A stretch of 37,289 bases of DNA, from positions 1 to 37,289 of the IMG/VR virus record IMGVR_UViG_3300036851_000591; one strand, written 5' to 3'. Shown here piece after piece: positions 1,688 to 36,821 of the stretch. A program made the translations under genes and the position numbers. The stretch's first letter is position 1, and the number at the start of each line of letters is the position of its first letter. Below the pieces are notes generated by a model that had not been told where the DNA came from, did not search any database, and worked only from the letters and a program-made list of their open reading frames with translations. This DNA comes from a virus.

Positions 1688-2007
1688 GCATCCGAGAGAG
1701 CGGCATTCAGAAACAAGTGGCCGATGCAATCAAGGCGCGGTATCGAGAGCATGCCTGGGTCCGAGTTAAGCATGGAACAGCTTACGCCGTTGTTGGTGAT
1801 CCCGATTTGTATGGCTGTGTCTGGGGTCAAGCCTTTGGATTCGAAATCAAAAATGAGGACGGCGAACTAACCACAATCCAAACTTATCGCATTAAAGAGT
1901 TGAAGAAAGCTGGTGCTATTGCTGGCGGTGTCCAGACACCTATGGGAGCATTGTCGTTATTGGATCGTGGATTGGCGCATCTTGAGCGACCAGGGTTTGC
2001 ACCGTGA
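1684..2007 (+). CDS. VRR-NUC domain nuclease
   Basis: 107-aa PD-(D/E)XK nuclease of the small phage VRR-NUC type, expected to cut branched or structured DNA during replication or recombination. Catalytic-core signs: E5 in the first helix (IRESGIQKQV), GDPDLYG at 38-44 supplying D41, GFEIKNEDG at 52-60 supplying E54-x-K56, and Q66 in the following helix. I chose GTG 1684 because it forms a GTGA overlap with the previous stop, has AGAGGA upstream at 1664-1669, and gives the usual short VRR-NUC length; the open frame extends back to 1552 but that part reads as noise. The helicase gene downstream overlaps by GTGA. VRR-NUC and SNF2-type helicase pairs are common in phage replication modules. Confidence 0.9.
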   Translation: MSIRESGIQKQVADAIKARYREHAWVRVKHGTAYAVVGDPDLYGCVWGQAFGFEIKNEDGELTTIQTYRIKELKKAGAIAGGVQTPMGALSLLDRGLAHLERPGFAP

Positions 2008-3386
2008 TTGATAATGGTAGACCTCCTCGCCGCAGGTCGCAGCTCCGGGCGCTTCGCTGGATCAGAAAGCGCCAGGGAGTGGCGATGCTGGCCATGCCCA
2101 TGAGTTCTGGAAAGTCAAGAGTCGTTATTGACTACATTCAGACCGAGGACATTCGAACAGTTTTAATTCTGGCTCCCAAGTCCGTGATTGATGTGTGGCC
2201 TGAGCAGTTCGACAAGCACGCCGAACATCGAACCGACTACCTGGTACATCAGATGGGATACGGATCGGTGAAACAGCGCACTGAGGATGCCGATGCCTTC
2301 CTAGAAGCGGCCCAAAAATCCAATCAAACTTACATTGGCGTGATCAATTATCAGGCAGCATTCCGTGAACCCTTCCGTTCTTGGGCGCTTCAGCAGAGGT
2401 GGGATCTTGTAGTGCTGGATGAATCCCACCGGATCAAGTCACCGGGCGGGAAGCAGTCATGGTTTTGTAAGCGATTGACCGAACGCTCGACTGCTCGGCT
2501 CTGTCTCACGGGCACGCCGATGCCCCATAGCCCCCTCGACATCTATGCCCAATATCGATTTCTGGCGCCCGATACTTTTGGCACTCGGGTTGACGCATTC
2601 AAATTGGCATATTGTTATGTGGGAGGCTTCTCGGGTCGTCAGATTATCGGATGGCACAACCTTAAAGATCTCCGTCGCCGTTATAAGACCCTTGCGTTCG
2701 AATCCTCCGAAGCCGAACTGAAGCTGTTGCCTGAGCAGGACATCGTGCGTCACTGCGAGTTGGAGCCCAAGGCCCGCCAGCACTATGGTGAGTTGAAGAA
2801 GGAGTTCATCACCGCCACCGAACAAGGCATCGTCACCGCCGGCAATGCTCTGGTCAAACTGCTTCGCTTCCAACAGATCACCAGCGGCTTCTTTCAGCAC
2901 CAGGCGCATCCCAAAGCACCGAAAGTCATTGAAGATATCAGCCATGCGAAGAGCGATCTCCTAGCCGATATCCTGGAGGACTTTCATCCCGACGAACCGT
3001 TGGTGATCTTCTGCCGTTTCCATCCCGAGATGGACCGACTCCACACACTATGCCAGCGACTCAAGCGCCCTACCTACGAATTGTCCGGCCGGATCAACCA
3101 GCTCAAATATTGGCAAGCCGGTTTGCGTCCCATATTGATCACCCAAGTTCAATCAGGAGCCGAAGGAATCGATCTCACCCGCGCGCGATATGGGATCTGC
3201 TCTTCACTCGGCTTCTCCTTGGGCGATTATCGGCAGATTCGACGCCGGGTCAACCGTACCACCCAAACCCGCGCCGTAACCTGGATACATCTGGTCTGCC
3301 GCAATACGGTTGATCAAAAGGTCTATCGGGGATTCAAGAACCAGGAGGATGTCATTAACATGGTACTGAAGGAGGGCATCGAATGA
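2004..3386 (+). CDS. SNF2-type superfamily 2 helicase
   Basis: 460-aa ATP-dependent DNA translocase or helicase. Motif I (Walker A) is MSSGKSR at 33-39, motif II is DESH at 139-142, motif III is TGTPM at 169-173. In the second RecA-like domain motif V is QSGAEGIDL at 383-391 and motif VI is QIRRRVNRTTQ at 411-421, the SNF2-like form of Q..gR..R..Q. The length and the compact spacing fit the small phage SNF2/DEXH proteins linked to replication. It starts with GTG 2004 overlapping the VRR-NUC stop, and ends in ATGA overlap with the next small gene. It probably works with the neighbouring polymerase and VRR-NUC nuclease in DNA replication or recombination. Confidence 0.93.
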   Translation: MIDNGRPPRRRSQLRALRWIRKRQGVAMLAMPMSSGKSRVVIDYIQTEDIRTVLILAPKSVIDVWPEQFDKHAEHRTDYLVHQMGYGSVKQRTEDADAFLEAAQKSNQTYIGVINYQAAFREPFRSWALQQRWDLVVLDESHRIKSPGGKQSWFCKRLTERSTARLCLTGTPMPHSPLDIYAQYRFLAPDTFGTRVDAFKLAYCYVGGFSGRQIIGWHNLKDLRRRYKTLAFESSEAELKLLPEQDIVRHCELEPKARQHYGELKKEFITATEQGIVTAGNALVKLLRFQQITSGFFQHQAHPKAPKVIEDISHAKSDLLADILEDFHPDEPLVIFCRFHPEMDRLHTLCQRLKRPTYELSGRINQLKYWQAGLRPILITQVQSGAEGIDLTRARYGICSSLGFSLGDYRQIRRRVNRTTQTRAVTWIHLVCRNTVDQKVYRGFKNQEDVINMVLKEGIE

Positions 3387-4058: not shown

Positions 4059-4314
4059 GCACCAACGCTTCTTGGAGCACATCGGTCGAACCTTTTATGC
4101 CGAAAGCACCAAGATTATTCCTGATGAGGAATTGACATTGCGAGTCTTCATCACCCGAAAGACCATGCATCAGATCTTCACCGGCAAATGGCTGGCAAAA
4201 TATCCTATTACGGTGCGGATAGTTCCCAAGGAGAAACCACCGCAGCTTGTGAATCTGAGTCAGCGCGAGGAACCAATGTTCGTGTCCGTCGTCCCGAAAG
4301 GAAAGGCAAGCTGA
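4039..4314 (+). CDS. Small hypothetical protein, last of the plus-strand operon
   Basis: 91 aa, no recognised domain. The only usable start in frame is GTG 4039, which overlaps the previous gene by 20 nt; the next methionine is about residue 43. Codons look natural and the middle (TFYAESTKIIPDEELTLRVF and TGKWLAKYPITVRIV) reads like a real alpha/beta protein. The last 107 bp lie antisense to the end of the minus-strand spanin-like gene, so the two operons run into each other here. Function unknown. Confidence 0.6.
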   Translation: MLTPSPEHQRFLEHIGRTFYAESTKIIPDEELTLRVFITRKTMHQIFTGKWLAKYPITVRIVPKEKPPQLVNLSQREEPMFVSVVPKGKAS

Positions 4315-4936
4315 TCGGAATGCCGCCTGTCATCTGGATACCCGCGTGAACCTTTCCGCCGGCAGAGACACCGACGCCTGGACCTACTATGAGTTTGGGA
4401 CACGGTCCTTTCGTGATCAGATACGAGCACTCGTCCTCGATGATCTCGACCAAGCGACTGATAGTGACGCTATCGACTCGGAGTTGCGCGAGCAGACCAC
4501 CAGCCGCGCGCTTCCATTCGTCCCGATCCCGCCGCATGCTGTCCCGTCCCGACCGAAGACGATTGATGCGGAGGGTATCCGCTATGTGCCGCTGTTCCTG
4601 CTGTCGGTCGATCTCCAGGAGCAGGCGATTGCTGTCGCGTACTTCCGGCAGCGCCCGCAATTGCTGGCGAAGATTCGTGATCGTTTGGCTCGCGAGATTG
4701 CTTATCAATTCACCAGCGCGTTCTTCGGCACTGTCACGCGCATAAATCGTGTCCCGACTGCTACTAAGTTGGCTCAGGCTGTCAAAGCGATGCGTCCAGA
4801 CCGCTAGGCTCTCGGCATGGACTCTTCGAAGCTCCTTGGCCTCCTGTCGATCTCGCCCGTCTGGCGATCTGGCCAGAAACAGGAAGATCGCCACGACCGC
4901 GCATCCTAAGACAATGAACCATAACGATTTAGACAC
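4208..4936 (-). CDS. Spanin-like protein (TM, coiled coil, Gly-rich end)
   Basis: 242 aa. A short N-terminus leads to one membrane segment at about 5-21 (LWFIVLGCAVVAIFLFLA), then a long polar helical region rich in Arg, Glu, Ser and Gln (about 30-150), then a Gly-rich beta segment (VGPGVGVSAGGKVHAGI) and a low-complexity tail. A single N-terminal TM, periplasmic coiled coil and position after an endolysin fit an inner-membrane Rz-like spanin; the Gly-rich hairpin resembles the end of some phage Rz-like proteins. Start is GTG 4936, with AGGAGG in 4941-4946, only 4 nt away. It is the last gene of the late operon. The final ~30 residues read like read-through into the antisense strand of the opposing gene. 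No separate outer-membrane lipoprotein was found. Confidence 0.62.
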   Translation of the reverse strand: MSKSLWFIVLGCAVVAIFLFLARSPDGRDRQEAKELRRVHAESLAVWTHRFDSLSQLSSSRDTIYARDSAEERAGELISNLASQTITNLRQQLRALPEVRDSNRLLLEIDRQQEQRHIADTLRINRLRSGRDSMRRDRDEWKRAAGGLLAQLRVDSVTISRLVEIIEDECSYLITKGPCPKLIVGPGVGVSAGGKVHAGIQMTGGIPISLPFLSGRRTRTLVPRADSDSQAAVVSPWELSAP

Positions 4937-5068: not shown

Positions 5069-5452
5069 TTAAGGATCGTCAATTTCAAAGTGACCATAGT
5101 CGCGGTTGCGCTCATCGGTGGTGGAACTGTTCTGATTCCAGTCTCCGCCCCATCGTAATCGCACTCCAGCGATGTGAGCGACAGCGCGCATCACACCTGC
5201 CAGTACACAAAACATTTCAGTGTCGTTCCAATTCACCGGCCAAGGAGCGAGATCGACGGCCTTGCCTTCCAAGTGCTTAGATTTCATTGTCCAACTCTTA
5301 CCCCGAGCGACATTGATTTTCTGCTCTTCGATGGTCCGCACACCATCGAGCACCTTGAAGTCCATGATTTCAATTGCCGCTTCGCAGACCAACACCAGTC
5401 GGCCATCGACGCCTTCCAGATTGGCCCTACTTTCCGCTCCGAACACCGGCAT
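5069..5452 (-). CDS. Endolysin, M15 L-alanyl-D-glutamate peptidase type
   Basis: 127-aa zinc peptidase that cuts peptidoglycan stem peptides during lysis. Zinc ligands and catalytic residue are all present: H60 and D67 in SKHLEGKAVD, D118 and H121 in DYGHFEI, with WGGDW at 101-105. The spacing H-x6-D and D-x2-H is the same as in the T5 endolysin (His66, Asp73, Asp130, His133), and the length is close to that enzyme. The frame could open one codon earlier at GTG 5455; ATG 5452 is preferred because GGAG at 5460-5463 is then 7 nt away. It has no cell-wall-binding domain and no signal peptide, so it needs a holin. It overlaps the upstream two-TM gene by 26 nt. Confidence 0.93.
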   Translation of the reverse strand: MPVFGAESRANLEGVDGRLVLVCEAAIEIMDFKVLDGVRTIEEQKINVARGKSWTMKSKHLEGKAVDLAPWPVNWNDTEMFCVLAGVMRAVAHIAGVRLRWGGDWNQNSSTTDERNRDYGHFEIDDP

Positions 5453-5948
5453 CACCCGTCTCCACGTTGATGTCCACCTGCTCGGGCTGCGGGATTACTA
5501 CAGCAGACCGTTCTTTCGTTAGAGAACCGTTGGCGGCAATACGAGCAGCTTCCTGACCTTTGGCCTTGGCCTCTTCGATCTTTGCTTTGGACTCGCCGTG
5601 TTCGCGGGAGGAATAGCGATCTACGGCCTGTCCTGCCACATTGGCTCCGATGGCGATGCCGATTAGCGTGATGAGCGCATTAGCTAGTGCCAAGGCATTG
5701 TTGCGGTCGCTGGTCTCTGTGGTCTGCGCCCCGGCGCGAACAGCGGCGGCAGCTTCCAGGACGGCCTTGGTGGTATCGTTCTGCACCATCTGCACCGCCG
5801 TGTTGAATGCGCGTGCCGCATCGTTATTGAGAAACATATACATCGAAGTCGCTAGAAGGCCGAGGCAGACGATGCCGAAAACGATGATGATTGCCAATGA
5901 CCGCAGCGACTGCATCGATGTCTTGTTGATCCACTCGGAAAAGGTCAT
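5427..5948 (-). CDS. Two-TM membrane protein of the lysis cassette
   Basis: 173 aa. TM1 at about 16-40 (SLAIIIVFGIVCLGLLATSM), an amphipathic Ala-rich segment (41-80), TM2 at about 84-109 (ALANALITLIGIAIGANVAG), then an Ala, Lys and Glu-rich hydrophilic tail that may form a coiled coil, ending in a polar region. Two TM segments directly before an endolysin make a holin or antiholin role plausible, but it is longer than typical class II holins and I do not recognise the family. ATG 5948 overlaps the stop of the receiver-domain gene as ATGA, so the two are translationally coupled. Confidence 0.75.
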   Translation of the reverse strand: MTFSEWINKTSMQSLRSLAIIIVFGIVCLGLLATSMYMFLNNDAARAFNTAVQMVQNDTTKAVLEAAAAVRAGAQTTETSDRNNALALANALITLIGIAIGANVAGQAVDRYSSREHGESKAKIEEAKAKGQEAARIAANGSLTKERSAVVIPQPEQVDINVETGDAGVRSGK

Positions 5949-6307
5949 GCTGCCTCCAGCAACTCGTGCAGCGCCGTGGTATATTGCTCGATGGTGAACG
6001 GCTTCAATAAAAATCGATAATGCTCCGAGATTTTCCGTCGTTCAATTAATTGTTCCTGCGGCGTGCCGGAGATCAGGAGAATGCGAATTTTGGGACATTG
6101 CATGTGCAGAAAGCGCAACAGTGGCATCAACTCTTCCGGCAGACCGACATCGGCGACCAGAATATCAATCTCGCAGTTCTGCAACACTTCCAGTGCCTCA
6201 TGCACGGTGGGAACCGACGCCGTCAACTCATAACCGATAGTCACCGTCATTTTATTCAAGACTCGTCGCATCATCGGAGAATCTTCCAAGACCAGCACAT
6301 TAGCCAC
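5945..6307 (-). CDS. Stand-alone CheY-like response-regulator receiver
   Basis: 120-aa single receiver domain with no output domain. The phosphorylation apparatus is intact: acidic pair E8-D9 in LVLEDS, phosphoacceptor D53 in LVADVGLPE, S80 (with T82) in LLISGTP, and K102 in FLLKPF, spaced as in CheY (D12-D13, D57, T87, K109). The hydrophobic strand pattern of the (beta-alpha)5 fold is clear. Start is GTG 6307 with a strong GGGAGGGGG just upstream; it overlaps the preceding gene by 8 nt and the following gene by 4 nt, so it is fully built into the lysis operon. It could accept phosphate from a host histidine kinase and act on a membrane partner, on lysis timing, or on host chemotaxis; none of these is shown by sequence. 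No kinase gene lies in the window. Confidence 0.92.
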   Translation of the reverse strand: MANVLVLEDSPMMRRVLNKMTVTIGYELTASVPTVHEALEVLQNCEIDILVADVGLPEELMPLLRFLHMQCPKIRILLISGTPQEQLIERRKISEHYRFLLKPFTIEQYTTALHELLEAA

Positions 6308-6608
6308 CGCCCCCTCCCTCTCGCTTTTGTCGCCGCCGATTCACCTGTTCCCAAGCGGCATCCCGCGACTGGCGTAAGTGAATATTTTCAGCATCGCGCT
6401 CGGCCAGCAGCCGGCGATAGCGTTCATTGTCCGCCCGCAAGTCATCGTTCATATCCTCCAATCGCTTCCACTGTGCGGCAATGCGACCCTGCTCGGTCTC
6501 CCGTCCACTGATACGGCCCTGCGTCAGCGCTTGGATCACTTTGGCCAGCGCGCCGAGGACGGCGACAATGCCGCCGGTCCAGGCAATAATGTCGAAGGCG
6601 GGATTCAT
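6300..6608 (-). CDS. Small TM plus coiled-coil protein, holin-like
   Basis: 102 aa. One membrane segment at about 5-28 (FDIIAWTGGIVAVLGALAKV), then a charged coiled-coil region at about 40-80 (LRADNERYRRLLAERDAE), ending in a basic stretch and a run of five glycines. This shape recurs among small phage lysis proteins (holin-like or Rz-like), but I cannot name the family. ATG 6608 overlaps the previous stop as ATGA; its end overlaps the receiver gene by 8 nt. The membrane anchor and long polar helix make it a candidate partner for the receiver or for the spanin-like protein. Confidence 0.72.
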   Translation of the reverse strand: MNPAFDIIAWTGGIVAVLGALAKVIQALTQGRISGRETEQGRIAAQWKRLEDMNDDLRADNERYRRLLAERDAENIHLRQSRDAAWEQVNRRRQKREGGGGG

Positions 6609-7057
6609 GGTCTCCTCCTTCTTTCGTCGGCCCGGTCATGCAGCACACGAATCAGGAGACCGGTATAAAAGGCTGTGATGCAGATAATACTCAAGACGGT
6701 TCCTGAATAGAGCATGTCGCTGATGGCATAGGAGACGCCGACCACGACAAAGGAAGCCATGATCGCAAGCAGCACCAACAGACGCAGGAAATGATGCAGT
6801 GATCCGGCGAGAATAATTTGCGCGGCGCCGAGAAAAAAGAGAAAGGCACCCCATCGGTTCTCGTTCAAACCCAACTCCAGCAGCTTCCCGGAGACATCGA
6901 AGGGCCAAAAACGTTCTGGCACGGCGACGAGCAGTATACCGCGAAAGAGAAGCAAGAAGAGACCCGATAAGATCTCCGTGAATGCCGTCGAATCATAGCG
7001 AGCAATGATCCAAAGATGAAAGAGCCGCCGCTGGAACCAACGTACGATATCGCTCAT
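6605..7057 (-). CDS. Four-TM membrane protein
   Basis: 150 aa, about four membrane segments: roughly 26-47 (FTEILSGLFLLLFRGILLVA), 69-90 (WGAFLFFLGAAQIILAGSL), 91-114 (LRLLVLLAIMASFVVVGVSY) and 117-139 (YSGTVLSIICITAFYTGLLI). The N-terminus is aromatic and basic, and the C-terminus is very Arg-rich, so both ends are probably cytoplasmic. I do not recognise the family. Position between tail adhesins and the lysis genes allows a holin-like or superinfection-exclusion role. ATGA overlaps join it to the genes on both sides. Confidence 0.72.
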   Translation of the reverse strand: MSDIVRWFQRRLFHLWIIARYDSTAFTEILSGLFLLLFRGILLVAVPERFWPFDVSGKLLELGLNENRWGAFLFFLGAAQIILAGSLHHFLRLLVLLAIMASFVVVGVSYAISDMLYSGTVLSIICITAFYTGLLIRVLHDRADERRRRP

Positions 7058-7572
7058 GTGAGCCCCAGGATGCGGACTCTGCCCGCTGTCAGATTGCTAG
7101 TGCCGCTGATTTTGAATCCGTCGATGGCCCCTGCGTTGTCGAGTTTTCCAACCCCGCCATTGCGGAAACTCTGTCCGGTCGGCCCGATCTCGTAGCTATT
7201 CACAAAGGCCCGCTTGTAGAGCGCCACTGATGCTGGATGCGGCACGTCAATGATGGCCCCGAAACTTTCAGCGGCGGCATTGCCGACATCCCAATTGCCA
7301 TCATTGCCAGTGAGCAGAATCGCCACCGCGCCGCTCGCGCTGTCGGTATTGAATGTGCTGCTGCTGGAGATGGAATCGTATGCCCAAGCATAACCAGCGA
7401 CGATTTCGACACCACCAATGTAAAATGTGAGCCGGGGGTCAGTCCCGTCCGTCGTTACGGTCACATCAGCGATGATAAGCCTAACCCGCTTGTAAGTGGA
7501 TAGATCCAGAACGGCAAAGGTAAATGCTCCCGCCGTTGGCGCATCCAAACTGGCAATCTCAATCCAGGCCAT
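7054..7572 (-). CDS. Tail receptor-binding-type jelly-roll protein, paralog 1
   Basis: 172-aa beta-rich protein, first of three related copies in a row. It begins with W-x-EIA and has VGNAAAESFGAIIDV in the middle and a C-terminal signature GKLDNAGAIDGFKISG followed by AGRVRILGL. The pattern G..g.l.....I.g..i.g...l..G.i.l.G matches the C-terminal beta-sandwich head of many phage tail fiber and adhesin proteins as I know them. Probably an exposed virion protein that binds the host surface or decorates the tail tip. Linked by ATGA to the downstream membrane gene and by TGATG to paralog 2. Confidence 0.7.
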   Translation of the reverse strand: MAWIEIASLDAPTAGAFTFAVLDLSTYKRVRLIIADVTVTTDGTDPRLTFYIGGVEIVAGYAWAYDSISSSSTFNTDSASGAVAILLTGNDGNWDVGNAAAESFGAIIDVPHPASVALYKRAFVNSYEIGPTGQSFRNGGVGKLDNAGAIDGFKISGTSNLTAGRVRILGLT

Positions 7573-8090
7573 CAGACGAGCCCCAAAAGAATGGCCTTGC
7601 CGGTGAGCAGTGCGCTTCCACCGCTCACCTTGAGTCCGTCAATGGCACCAGTATTCTCCATAATGCCAGAGCCACCTTGTGAATTGATATTGCCATCCGT
7701 ACCCACGAGAACGCTTTCATAGGTGGCTTTTTTGTAATGAGTTGTACTCAATGGTTCATCAATAGTAACGACGGAGCTGAAACTCTCGCCTGCTGCATTC
7801 CCAACAAGCCAGATGCCGGAATTGGAGCCGAGATCAATCTGGGATGCAGAGGGATCGGCATCATTATTGCTTGAATTCGCATAGGCCATGATAACATCCC
7901 AACGATATGGAGTCGTTATCAATGTGCCGCCGACATAAAACTGAATGAAGACTACCGTTCCATCAGTCGTGACCGTGATGCCACTGAGAATCAATTCGAG
8001 GACGCGATAGCCCGTAAGGGTAGGAGTCGGAAAATCAAAAACTCCGCTGACCGGTGCATCAACTCTGGCAATCTCAGTCCAGACCGACAT
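7572..8090 (-). CDS. Tail receptor-binding-type jelly-roll protein, paralog 2
   Basis: 172 aa, the same length as paralog 1 and alignable along its whole length: W-x-EIARVDAP at the start, ITVTTDGT at about 38-45, VGNAAGESFSSVVTI in the middle, and TGAIDGLKVSG plus LTGKAILLGLV at the end. The sequences are clearly diverged, so the duplication is not recent. It is beta-rich with no signal peptide or TM. Its TGA shares a base with the ATG of paralog 1. Probable receptor-binding or tail-tip protein; alternative multimeric adhesins would explain the repeated gene. Confidence 0.7.
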   Translation of the reverse strand: MSVWTEIARVDAPVSGVFDFPTPTLTGYRVLELILSGITVTTDGTVVFIQFYVGGTLITTPYRWDVIMAYANSSNNDADPSASQIDLGSNSGIWLVGNAAGESFSSVVTIDEPLSTTHYKKATYESVLVGTDGNINSQGGSGIMENTGAIDGLKVSGGSALLTGKAILLGLV

Positions 8091-8092
8091 GG

Positions 8093-9067
8093 CTATTCGA
8101 CTCCCAGCAAGATGAGATTACCCGCCACCAGATCAGATGATCCATAAATCACGACGCCGGTGATCTTTCCCGAAGCATTCAGTTTGCCTGCGCCATATGT
8201 CACGCGCCCCAGACTTCCATCAGGCTTGACGAAAGCACCAGTGACATAGGCCAGTTTGGGAAGAGTAAGTGCGGGGCCGTGGATAGTAACTACGCCGTCG
8301 TAACTCTCAGTCGAAGCATTGCCTACCTTAGCCGCTGCCGCTGACGGTGTCAGGCTGATGGCGCTCTCGGGAGAGGCGACCGGAGAACCAGCACCGTAGG
8401 TCGTCCAGAGATAATCGGACCCAGTGTATTCTGTTCCATCAATGATGTAACGCAGGAAAAGCTGGGAATCATCATCGGTGACGCGAACGCCAGTAATAAA
8501 AAGGCGCACGACGGTGATGTTGGATAGATTCAAACCTGAGATGGTCAGTTTGCCGCCGACAGTACTTTCCTGCCGTGCCACTTCGCCCCACGGTTCCGTC
8601 AAGTCGATAATCGGTGTGTCCAGCGACAAGGCAAAAAGTACTGCACCCGAAGCGAGTGATGCTAACTCAACAGTTTGTGCGATACTCACTGTCGGCGATG
8701 ACAGAGTTGAAGCTGAAACAATCGTAGACAACGCAATATCTTGCGGGGCGATGACAACCGGCTGTAATAAAACAGCTTCCGAAGCAACGAATGGCAACGA
8801 AACAATGCCGGTAAGAGTCGGAGCAAAGAGAATGGCACCCGATGCAATCGCAGGTATGCGAACAATGGGAAGACCCGGCAAGGCCAACCATGCTGGATAA
8901 CCGGTTGTTTGATCATAACCAAGAAAATATTGCACGCTCCCCCAATCCGCTGGCCGCAACAGAACGTACCAAATTCCGTTCTCGCCCTCGAACCAGATGG
9001 TGCCAGGACCGCCACCCCATCCTCGGTTGCGAGGGGTACTAAGAATCGGAGTAAAGAGTTCACTCAT
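8093..9067 (-). CDS. Modular tail fiber: N-domain, four short repeats, head domain
   Basis: 324 aa in three parts. Residues 1-70 are an N-terminal domain rich in Gly and aromatics (TIWFEGENGIWYVLL). Residues 73-156 hold four repeats of 20, 22, 22 and 20 residues of the type AIASGAILFAPTLTGIVSLP, the same repeat that builds the protein at 31627-33537. Residues 159-324 are the third copy of the jelly-roll head seen in the next two genes (VGNASTESYDGVVTI, then YGAGKLNASGKITGV and LVAGNLILLGV). This is a compact fiber with attachment domain, shaft and head. The start ATG overlaps the stop of the TIM-barrel-like gene (ATGA). Confidence 0.72.
   Translation of the reverse strand: MSELFTPILSTPRNRGWGGGPGTIWFEGENGIWYVLLRPADWGSVQYFLGYDQTTGYPAWLALPGLPIVRIPAIASGAILFAPTLTGIVSLPFVASEAVLLQPVVIAPQDIALSTIVSASTLSSPTVSIAQTVELASLASGAVLFALSLDTPIIDLTEPWGEVARQESTVGGKLTISGLNLSNITVVRLFITGVRVTDDDSQLFLRYIIDGTEYTGSDYLWTTYGAGSPVASPESAISLTPSAAAAKVGNASTESYDGVVTIHGPALTLPKLAYVTGAFVKPDGSLGRVTYGAGKLNASGKITGVVIYGSSDLVAGNLILLGVE
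8600..8851 (-). repeat. Four 20/22-residue fiber repeats
   Basis: Protein-level repeats at residues 73-156 of the fiber gene. Each follows x-I-x-S-x-x-x-L-x-x-P with a hydrophobic beta-like end. They match the repeats at 31756-33414, about 23 kb away in this window. Confidence 0.75.
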
Positions 9068-35060: not shown

Positions 35061-36821
35061 TTAGGGCGTGCAGGCAACGTTATAGGCCGAACCGCCCGGC
35101 TGGATGTCGGTCACCACGTTATCGCAATAGACCGTCACCGTACCCGCGACTCGCCGGATGCCGATGGCGTTGGTCTGCAAGCTGATCTGATTCCCCCGGA
35201 AAATGGCCGAGCCCTCGTAGATGTCGATGCCATAGGGCGCACCTTTTGAGAGCACGTTGTTGGAAATGACATGATTTACGCCACGAACACTGATCAAGGA
35301 ATTCATCGCCCCATAGATCGACACGGTGCCGGTCCCGTCAATTGTGTTCCCGGTCGCCGTCACCCGATCCGCACCCGCCGAGATCTCAATAGACTCGGCC
35401 CGCACGTTGGGACCGAACTGATTGTCGAGTACCTTGTTGTCATCCGCCAGCAGATCCGCCGGGCCGCTAAACCCGGAGGCATAGCCCCCGATGTAGACCC
35501 CTTCACCGTACTGTGCCGTTCCTTTCCCGGTGTCGCGGATCTTCGACCGGCGCACAGTCGAGTTATTCGTTCCCCAGCGGAGATGCACCGCCGCCTGGGT
35601 CATGTTGTCAATTTCCAGACTATCCAATTCGACGTAGGCTGAGCCTTCCGGCTGAAATCCGGTGAATCCGTTGGTGATCCTGAGTTTGCGAACGGTCCAA
35701 TAACTCGCCTGAAGCGAAATTACTCCATTGTTGGTCGTCAGAATGGTGGTGGGGCCGACACCGGAGAGCGTAATGCGCTGCGCAGCGGTGCCGCTCCGAG
35801 TCCACTTAGGATATTGGGAAAGAGTATACGTTCCCGCAGCGGCATTGATGCAGTCACCAGGAAGCGCGGCAGCTATCGCGCTGTTGAGTGCGGACACGGT
35901 TGAGACGTTGACCGTGCGAGCGCAAGAAATTCCTGATGTAGCCGTCACCGAGATGCGGGAGCTATCGCTCTGACCCGACGCTGATCCCACCACATAGGTG
36001 ACTCCTGCGGCCTCTCCCGTCACAGTCGCCGCTTGCGCTCCCGCCGATGCTACCGAGGCGATGCCCGGTGCCCGGCTGACCCAAGTGACGGTCGTTCCCA
36101 GCGACGCACCGCAATCGGTCACGCTTCCCATCAGTGAGCCGGTCCCGCCAACATCGAGCGCCAGCGTGGGAGGTGACACATCGATGGTGGAACCACCCAT
36201 GCAGACTTTCGTGGAGTCTTTGAGGGTACCCGACATGCCAACGATATAGGTGGTTCCCGTAGCAACGGCTGTTGCCCGAGCCCGCCGGATGGCGGTCTGC
36301 GTAACAGTCGCGATGCCGGTGTTCCGAGAGACCCAGGTGATCGCCAAGCTGGTGTCGATCTTGTTGCACTGATTGGTGAGCACTGCCGTGATCGATGCCG
36401 TATCGCCCGGTGCGGCGAACGCCAGGGTATCGGGACTCAGCACCAGCGATCCCGCCACAGAAATACATGGATTTCCGACCAGCACCAGCGAACTGTCGCG
36501 CTTGCCTTTCAGAGCCGCGCCTACGAATACTGAGCCATCGCTCTTCGCTGCCACCTTCCCCATCTGACCAGAACCAGAGATCGAGGCAATGGTTGTATTC
36601 TTACTGAACCAGTTCCCCATCGCATTTGATAAAGCCGTTCCACTGGTATTGAGCGGCACACAGTTCTGTGGTGCCGTATCCGGCACGTCCAATCGCAGGG
36701 TATCGGGCGTACAGCGAATGGAAGCGACCGCCTTCTCTTTTCCCTCGCGGGGACTGACCAACGGTTGCGCCGCTGCCGCACAGGCCAGCAGACCGATGAC
36801 AGCAGAGGCATAGCGAATCAT
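35061..36821 (-). CDS. Exported Big2-domain and beta-helix protein
   Basis: 586 aa. It has an apparent signal peptide: MIRYASAVIGLLACAAAAQP, with a possible lipobox (LLAC, Cys14) or an AAA cleavage site. Three bacterial Ig-like (Big2-type) domains follow at about 30-115, 120-210 and 212-295, each with a W-S/V-K/R-I-A core (NWFSKNTTIASI, TWVSRNTGIATV, TWVSRAPGIASV). Residues ~300-586 are a parallel beta-helix: SALNSAIAAALPGDCINAAA, GTYTLSQYPKW, then coils such as LRITNGFTGF, NSTVRRSKIRDTG and SNNVLSKGAP. Such layouts are common in secreted Gemmatimonadota-type proteins. The signal peptide is unusual for a virion protein. It could be exported in the infected host, or be a captured host adhesin. 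Confidence 0.75.
   Translation of the reverse strand: MIRYASAVIGLLACAAAAQPLVSPREGKEKAVASIRCTPDTLRLDVPDTAPQNCVPLNTSGTALSNAMGNWFSKNTTIASISGSGQMGKVAAKSDGSVFVGAALKGKRDSSLVLVGNPCISVAGSLVLSPDTLAFAAPGDTASITAVLTNQCNKIDTSLAITWVSRNTGIATVTQTAIRRARATAVATGTTYIVGMSGTLKDSTKVCMGGSTIDVSPPTLALDVGGTGSLMGSVTDCGASLGTTVTWVSRAPGIASVASAGAQAATVTGEAAGVTYVVGSASGQSDSSRISVTATSGISCARTVNVSTVSALNSAIAAALPGDCINAAAGTYTLSQYPKWTRSGTAAQRITLSGVGPTTILTTNNGVISLQASYWTVRKLRITNGFTGFQPEGSAYVELDSLEIDNMTQAAVHLRWGTNNSTVRRSKIRDTGKGTAQYGEGVYIGGYASGFSGPADLLADDNKVLDNQFGPNVRAESIEISAGADRVTATGNTIDGTGTVSIYGAMNSLISVRGVNHVISNNVLSKGAPYGIDIYEGSAIFRGNQISLQTNAIGIRRVAGTVTVYCDNVVTDIQPGGSAYNVACTP

Follow-up and report, generated by a model that had tools for sequence, protein, structure and literature searches.

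The phage analysed here encodes a conventional receiver domain within its lysis genes, and receivers also adjoin the lysis genes of another five phage lineages. This genomic association of receivers with lysis genes is solid, and within the searched data and literature the arrangement is recurrent and unrecognised. The window, i.e. the whole stretch of DNA under analysis, comprises 37,289 nucleotides (positions 1 to 37,289 of IMG/VR record IMGVR_UViG_3300036851_000591) and derives from a tailed phage, as indicated by terminase, portal and major tail protein matches. The association suggests that some phages consult the signalling state of the host before bursting it.

The lysis cassette of the window is transcribed right to left and follows the tail genes. 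Its genes, in order of transcription, are:

6605 to 7057, minus strand: 150-aa protein with about four transmembrane (TM) segments, first gene of the cassette (hydropathy; weak match to phrog_8980, 3e-4)
6300 to 6608, minus strand: 102-aa protein with one N-terminal TM segment and a highly charged, probably helical tail, the proposed membrane partner (hydropathy, phrog_3671)
5945 to 6307, minus strand: stand-alone receiver of 120 aa with E8, D9, D53, S80 and K102, without output domain (Pfam, PDB, AlphaFold, alignment)
5427 to 5948, minus strand: 173-aa two-TM protein, both ends predicted cytoplasmic, holin candidate (topology and place only)
5069 to 5455, minus strand: endolysin of the Peptidase_M15_4 / L-alanyl-D-glutamate peptidase type (phrog_465, 2.8e-42; Pfam M15_4, 9e-6)
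4208 to 4936, minus strand: 242-aa protein with an N-terminal TM segment and a long charged helical region, inner-spanin candidate (topology)

The endolysin assignment is certain. The protein is 45-48% identical to annotated endolysins, its start being either the GTG at 5455 or the ATG at 5452, and the receiver thus lies upstream of a real endolysin, as an initial annotation made from the sequence had held. That annotation also described the 102-aa neighbour as a TM plus coiled-coil protein; the TM segment is right, but its heptad pattern is not above that of shuffles (86/300). The tail of this protein is predicted cytoplasmic by the positive-inside rule, and its profile matches are phrog_3671 (1.3e-5, unknown function) and an Rz-like profile (0.09), with no match to the XhlA/hemolysin family among Pfam, PHROG and NCBIfam profiles. 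Neither the 173-aa nor the 242-aa protein matches a family in Pfam or PHROG. The TM proteins of the window fit holin and spanin topology, with no holin or spanin family match above noise, and by that topology candidates among them could be the holin and spanin.

The receiver gene is an open reading frame on the minus strand (a strand left unstated in the initial annotation) with a GTG start at 6307, a stop at 5945 and 120 codons for amino acids. Immediately 5' of the start is GAGGGAGGGGG, which is G-rich and Shine-Dalgarno-like. The annotated overlaps with both neighbours are confirmed, 8 nt with the 102-aa gene (6608-6300) and 4 nt (ATGA) with the 173-aa gene (5948-5427). The product belongs to Pfam Response_reg (PF00072), scoring 43.4 bits (E 4e-11; profile positions 1-110 of 111) against a curated cut-off of 30.2 bits, and its best PDB sequence match is a CheY (8.5e-8). 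An AlphaFold model (pLDDT 83, pTM 0.80) displays alternating beta and alpha elements in a (beta-alpha)5 fold and gives 419 matches to PDB structures at E<=0.001, with solved receivers at a TM-score of about 0.8. Open reading frame, Pfam, PDB and AlphaFold therefore agree on the intact stand-alone receiver claimed for this position. Aligned with other receivers, the protein has the acidic pair at E8 and D9, the phospho-Asp at D53, the T/S position at S80 and the catalytic Lys at K102; the initial list of phosphorylation residues holds for these five, but T82 is not needed, as S80 occupies the T/S position. The beta3-alpha3 loop is without the Gly found there in other receivers, and the Pfam score is the lowest among the receivers compared. 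By sequence the receiver resembles CheYs, yet the receiver of the hybrid kinase CckA (best) and the single-domain CpdR (second) are the NCBIfam profiles that score better. A DNA-binding regulator of the PhoB/OmpR type is rejected for this gene, since the protein ends at residue 120 and Pfam finds Response_reg alone. Codon usage matches that of the rest of the phage (z 0.43, a comparison of low power at 120 codons) and shows no sign of recent acquisition from a host.

The first lead beyond the window was Alteromonas phage V22, from a structure search of viral proteins; further cases came from structure and sequence searches. The survey for receivers at lysis genes that had been proposed initially has in this way returned recurrence in five further lineages of three morphotypes, namely Myoalterovirus V22, schitovirus A5, siphoviruses R9Y1-3, Foturvirus R8W and H4/4, and siphoviruses PB15 and XX1924. 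Every cultured carrier infects a single genus, Alteromonas. Because the search ignored gene context, these cases were not selected for adjacency to lysis genes; the window, unlike them, was chosen for that context. In each lineage the receiver lies directly 3' of a gene for a protein of about 100-125 aa with a single TM segment and a charged helix, and the helix is predicted cytoplasmic by the positive-inside rule in 10/10 partners, including those of PB15 and XX1924 with a C-terminal anchor. In V22 the stand-alone receiver is situated between the TM-helix protein and an Rz-like spanin, and in two V22 relatives (L128, L130) it is accompanied by Rz, an embedded lipoprotein (o-spanin) and a two-TM gene. 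Gene order in A5 is TM-helix, receiver, Rz, two-TM, endolysin; in R9Y1-3 it is TM-helix, receiver, GH108 lysozyme, with 4-nt overlaps; in R8W and H4/4 it is holin, one-TM, receiver, two-TM gene, the last overlapping by 4 nt. PB15 displays an XhlA-like gene (phrog_937 'hemolysin', 1.8e-16), the receiver, an M15_3 endolysin (4-nt overlap) and GTA_holin_3TM. Homologues of the Foturvirus partner are confined to receiver-bearing phages among 50,697 phage records. The receiver region of V22 and A5 also adjoins the tail fibre. A counter-example is Stenotrophomonas phage Bhz63, in which a receiver protein of 239 aa, annotated as PhoP-like, is encoded away from recognised lysis genes.

Additional observations can be garnered from these searches. 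The Bhz63 regulator gene overlaps a gene of 276 aa that the annotation places in the PRK11100 superfamily (OR797046.1, 37520-39066), and the two are possibly a phage-borne two-component pair. Most receiver matches in INPHARED (Listeria, Staphylococcus, Acinetobacter MD-2021a, 'Bacteriophage sp.') were set aside as bacterial-looking DNA, an exclusion judged by labels, absent annotation or bacterial gene names and not record by record. Many receiver-bearing 'phage' records of the OR844-OR851, MT835-MT840 and CAKLQ series look bacterial on labels and gene names only, and counts of phage response regulators from INPHARED may be inflated. Twice, in lineages unrelated to each other, a DUF5675 protein occupies the place of a relative's M15-type peptidase: L128:7507-7893 compared with L130:8315-8710 and V22 ORF35, and PB15 (L141:6384-6740) compared with XX1924 (L142:2438-2836). 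The assignment is by Pfam match for V22 ORF35 and by resemblance for L130 and XX1924, and DUF5675 proteins may be an alternative endolysin.

The reading preferred here, for which the case stands about evenly balanced, is that the receiver and a membrane partner on which it acts form an accessory module for lysis control, with input from a host kinase. The receiver would be made late and co-translated with that partner, the helical protein anchored in the membrane (6608-6300), its gene lying directly 5' of those for the holin candidate and the endolysin. D53 would be phosphorylated, most likely by a host histidine kinase or HPt protein, and its phosphorylation state could alter binding of the receiver to the cytoplasmic helix of the partner (or to the two-TM protein), so that hole formation would be delayed or released to suit the physiological state of the host. 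Phosphorylation, the identity of the kinase, membrane-partner binding and any effect on lysis time are what we infer. The reading draws on the recurrence of the layout, the predicted cytoplasmic helices, the conserved active site and the ten genomes in which no kinase or HPt was found; it is weakened by the 13-24% identity of the window receiver to the others, by partners that show no homology, by searches that found no cassette-sharing relative of the window phage, by the single host genus and by the host-recognition assignment of the V22 and A5 genes. Extended to several tailed-phage families, the proposal is somewhat more tentative: a host-kinase-phosphorylated receiver and a membrane-anchored helix might form an input module for lysis timing, with host signalling setting the opening of the holin. 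Explanations of lysis timing usually turn on holin properties, antiholins and the sensing of superinfection, all internal to the phage. A phosphorylatable receiver conserved in lysis operons across unrelated phages would mean that some of them time their release by direct reading of a host two-component pathway; if so, the lysis cassette reads this signalling post-translationally, and the window represents a lineage outside the Alteromonas-phage cases. Alteromonas is a common marine genus, and its receiver-carrying phages provide culturable test systems.

No HPt domain was found in ten genomes (the window and nine other phage records), nor any HATPase_c match above cut-off, with one sub-threshold match in A5; each of these genomes encodes one receiver. 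With no phage kinase or HPt found in the ten genomes, the signal, if any, should come from the host, in line with host kinase input. The lack of a phage kinase in these genomes also favours a phosphate sink or decoy, in which the receiver would drain a host kinase or HPt (e.g. an envelope-damage sensor) and blunt the stress response, its operon place being a matter of timing. Further points on its side are the 120-aa receiver without output domain, the kept catalytic residues, the CckA receiver and CpdR as top NCBIfam profiles, and the two matches to the window receiver in a GTDB scan (28-29% identity), both of which are receivers of hybrid kinases. Such a sink is unlikely all the same: it would have no need to be invariably paired with an overlapping gene for a helical protein anchored in the membrane, or to co-occur with that partner, and if synthesised minutes ahead of lysis it could do little before the cell bursts. 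Of the ideas put forward in the initial annotation, control of host motility and the decoy for a host histidine kinase, taken as an early decoy, fit poorly with the late, lysis-linked placement.

Published assignments, as given in the excerpts of the respective papers, are of another kind. The V22 receiver is described as a class II AMG (PMC7289586), the A5 receiver is placed in a host-recognition module or as an AMG, with the V22 and A5 genes regarded as a common host-recognition module (PMC10579305), and the R8W gene is described as PhoB-like, for adaptation to phosphate limitation (PMC8228385). These excerpts contain no statement linking the receivers to lysis, and a literature text search on phage-encoded response regulators returned nothing. 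The initial claim that a response regulator in a lysis cassette is not described accordingly survives as regards the lysis link in those excerpts, but the genes themselves are annotated in published Alteromonas phage genomes. In the records of R8W and H4/4 they are annotated as PhoB or putative DNA-binding response regulator (MW043865.1, 44435-44896; NC_047834.1, 43324-43785). In H4/4 gp44 Response_reg is matched but no DNA-binding domain is, and because R8W gp48 is 92% identical to it the PhoB reading is rejected for both. The published assignments for V22, A5 and R8W, along with the occurrence of the window receiver as a singleton in its own lineage, speak for an auxiliary gene of host physiology (motility, phosphate or general signalling), the end of a late operon being a common site for cargo. 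That explanation is a little weaker still than the phosphate sink, as the PhoB identity fails and cargo leaves unexplained the TM-helix gene 5' of the receiver at lysis genes in five lineages. Reading the receivers as part of a lysis module would correct the annotations as class II AMG, PhoB and host-recognition module.

The acidic pair, phospho-Asp, Ser and Lys are kept in 13/13 receivers at identities as low as 13%, and dN/dS is 0.02-0.20 in six receiver pairs with estimable dS, which at the level of sequence demonstrates purifying selection on the Alteromonas-phage receivers. For the window gene itself, the initial argument that retained catalytic residues mean selection does not carry, because the residues alone are insufficient and there is no close relative for testing. 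Conservation bears directly on the idea that the receiver fold serves structurally or as a chaperone, in a phosphorylation-independent antiholin-like or scaffold protein that fixes lysis time via the membrane partner. Co-translation and pairing with that partner would agree with such a protein, as would the missing loop Gly after the phospho-Asp and the low Pfam score of the window receiver. It is nevertheless improbable, since a scaffold does not need Asp, Ser and Lys jointly and the catalytic positions are kept in the 13 receivers. With recurrence in five lineages, invariant catalytic residues and purifying selection, the arrangement as a class is neither a single random find nor one in which the equivalents of D53 or K102 are lost, outcomes that the initial annotation had named as counting against its interpretation, though in the lineage of the window no second receiver was found. 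That interpretation is partly supported.

Identity between the window receiver and those of the Alteromonas phages is 13-24%, and a phmmer search with the former finds none of the latter. The membrane neighbours in the window, including the 102-aa partner, have no detectable homology to their Alteromonas-phage counterparts, and comparison of the 150-aa protein with the multi-TM gene that takes its position in PB15 and XX1924 gives a best E of 0.15, showing no homology. Among the Alteromonas phages, receiver identity is 43% between V22 and A5 and 45% between R9Y1 and Foturvirus, and the partners are homologous within each of these pairs. Because the V22/A5 and R9Y/Foturvirus modules are homologous, the count comes to about three Alteromonas-phage receiver modules plus the window, and perhaps about three independent cases exist besides the window. 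The layout may have originated several times, or a single old module may have passed from phage to phage; both imply that place matters.

The window phage is an orphan and its receiver a singleton in the searched data. Scans of IMG/VR and GTDB revealed no close relative of the receiver; two weak matches lie in unannotated faecal records. A tail-protein search revealed no relatives of the phage. The tail-assembly protein is 22-25% identical to those of Mesyanzhinovviridae, and the distant tail-tip relatives QDWS359 and PaMx11 are without a receiver. Among the terminase relatives (26-52% identity) a receiver is present in 0/15, with no other common protein in the compared stretches, and among the IMG/VR records nearest by endolysin in 0/80. 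The nearest endolysin (71% identical; L031:1714-2112) lies on a short contig from another kind of phage, with a different gene order and without a receiver. The motif FLxKPFTxE gave 11 matches in IMG/VR, none of them a receiver. No relative sharing the cassette, receiver-bearing or receiver-less, was found in these searches. A chance insertion of a functionless host receiver gene, confined to the window and unrelated to the Alteromonas cases, would fit the singleton status, the 13-24% identity to other receivers and the endolysin relatives without a receiver, and is very improbable given the intact frame and active site, phage-like codon usage, overlaps at both ends with a translated operon and the same placement in other phages.

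Elsewhere in the window, three adjacent genes (7054-7572, 7572-8090 and 8093-9067) have similar ends (GFKISGTSNLTAGRVRILGLT, GLKVSGGSALLTGKAILLGLV and GVVIYGSSDLVAGNLILLGVE) and are apparently tandem paralogues of a tail-associated domain. A 586-aa protein (35061-36821) that matches Ig-like (Big_2) and right-handed beta-helix domains and, weakly, chondroitinase B is a tailspike candidate, distant from the tail-fibre genes. The opposite-strand arm encodes a SLOG-family (YAcAr) protein (1298-1687) and an SNF2-type helicase (2004-3386).

The closest layout to the window is that of PB15 (KX982260.1, 30533-30910) and XX1924 (MN592896.1), both with siphovirus-size genomes, in which a multi-TM gene, a TM-helix protein of about 101 aa and a stand-alone receiver are followed, in PB15, by an M15 endolysin. 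Differences from the window are receivers of 13-15% identity to its own, a C-terminal (XhlA-like) TM anchor, a holin 3' of the endolysin in PB15 and, in XX1924, a DUF5675-like protein where the endolysin would stand. In B. subtilis PBSX, XhlA works together with the holin XhlB and the endolysin XlyA; vesicle formation triggered by the prophage requires each of xhlA, xhlB and xlyA, agreeing with an earlier lysis report (PMC5589764). Foturvirus R8W and H4/4 share with the window a one-TM helix protein, receiver and two-TM protein with 4-nt overlaps, adjoining a class II holin; they differ in that terminase genes follow, the endolysin is elsewhere and the receiver is 19% identical, with a C-terminal extension. 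The 'CheY-like' class II AMGs V22 gp30 and A5 gp11 likewise lie directly 3' of a TM-helix protein and precede an Rz-like spanin, a two-TM gene and, in A5, the endolysin, but these receivers are 14-17% identical to that of the window and a spanin, not the two-TM gene, is next.

A receiver fold encoded by phages is also known from the cREC domains of jumbo phages, which are divergent and tied to NAD/ADP-ribose enzymes, never to two-component signalling (PMC7824862). The window receiver is not assigned to these, its neighbours being membrane proteins and an endolysin, not NAD/ADP-ribose or cyclic-nucleotide enzymes. A precedent for control of release by a host phosphorelay exists: lysis by RcGTA needs CtrA (PMC6363796), and CtrA directs 'lytic deferment' in alphaproteobacterial phages (PMC9437464); in both, a host phosphorelay sets the time at which phage-type particles leave. 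The receiver in these systems is that of a host transcription factor, which works on promoters, whereas in the window the receiver is phage-encoded, has no output domain and lies inside the lysis cassette.
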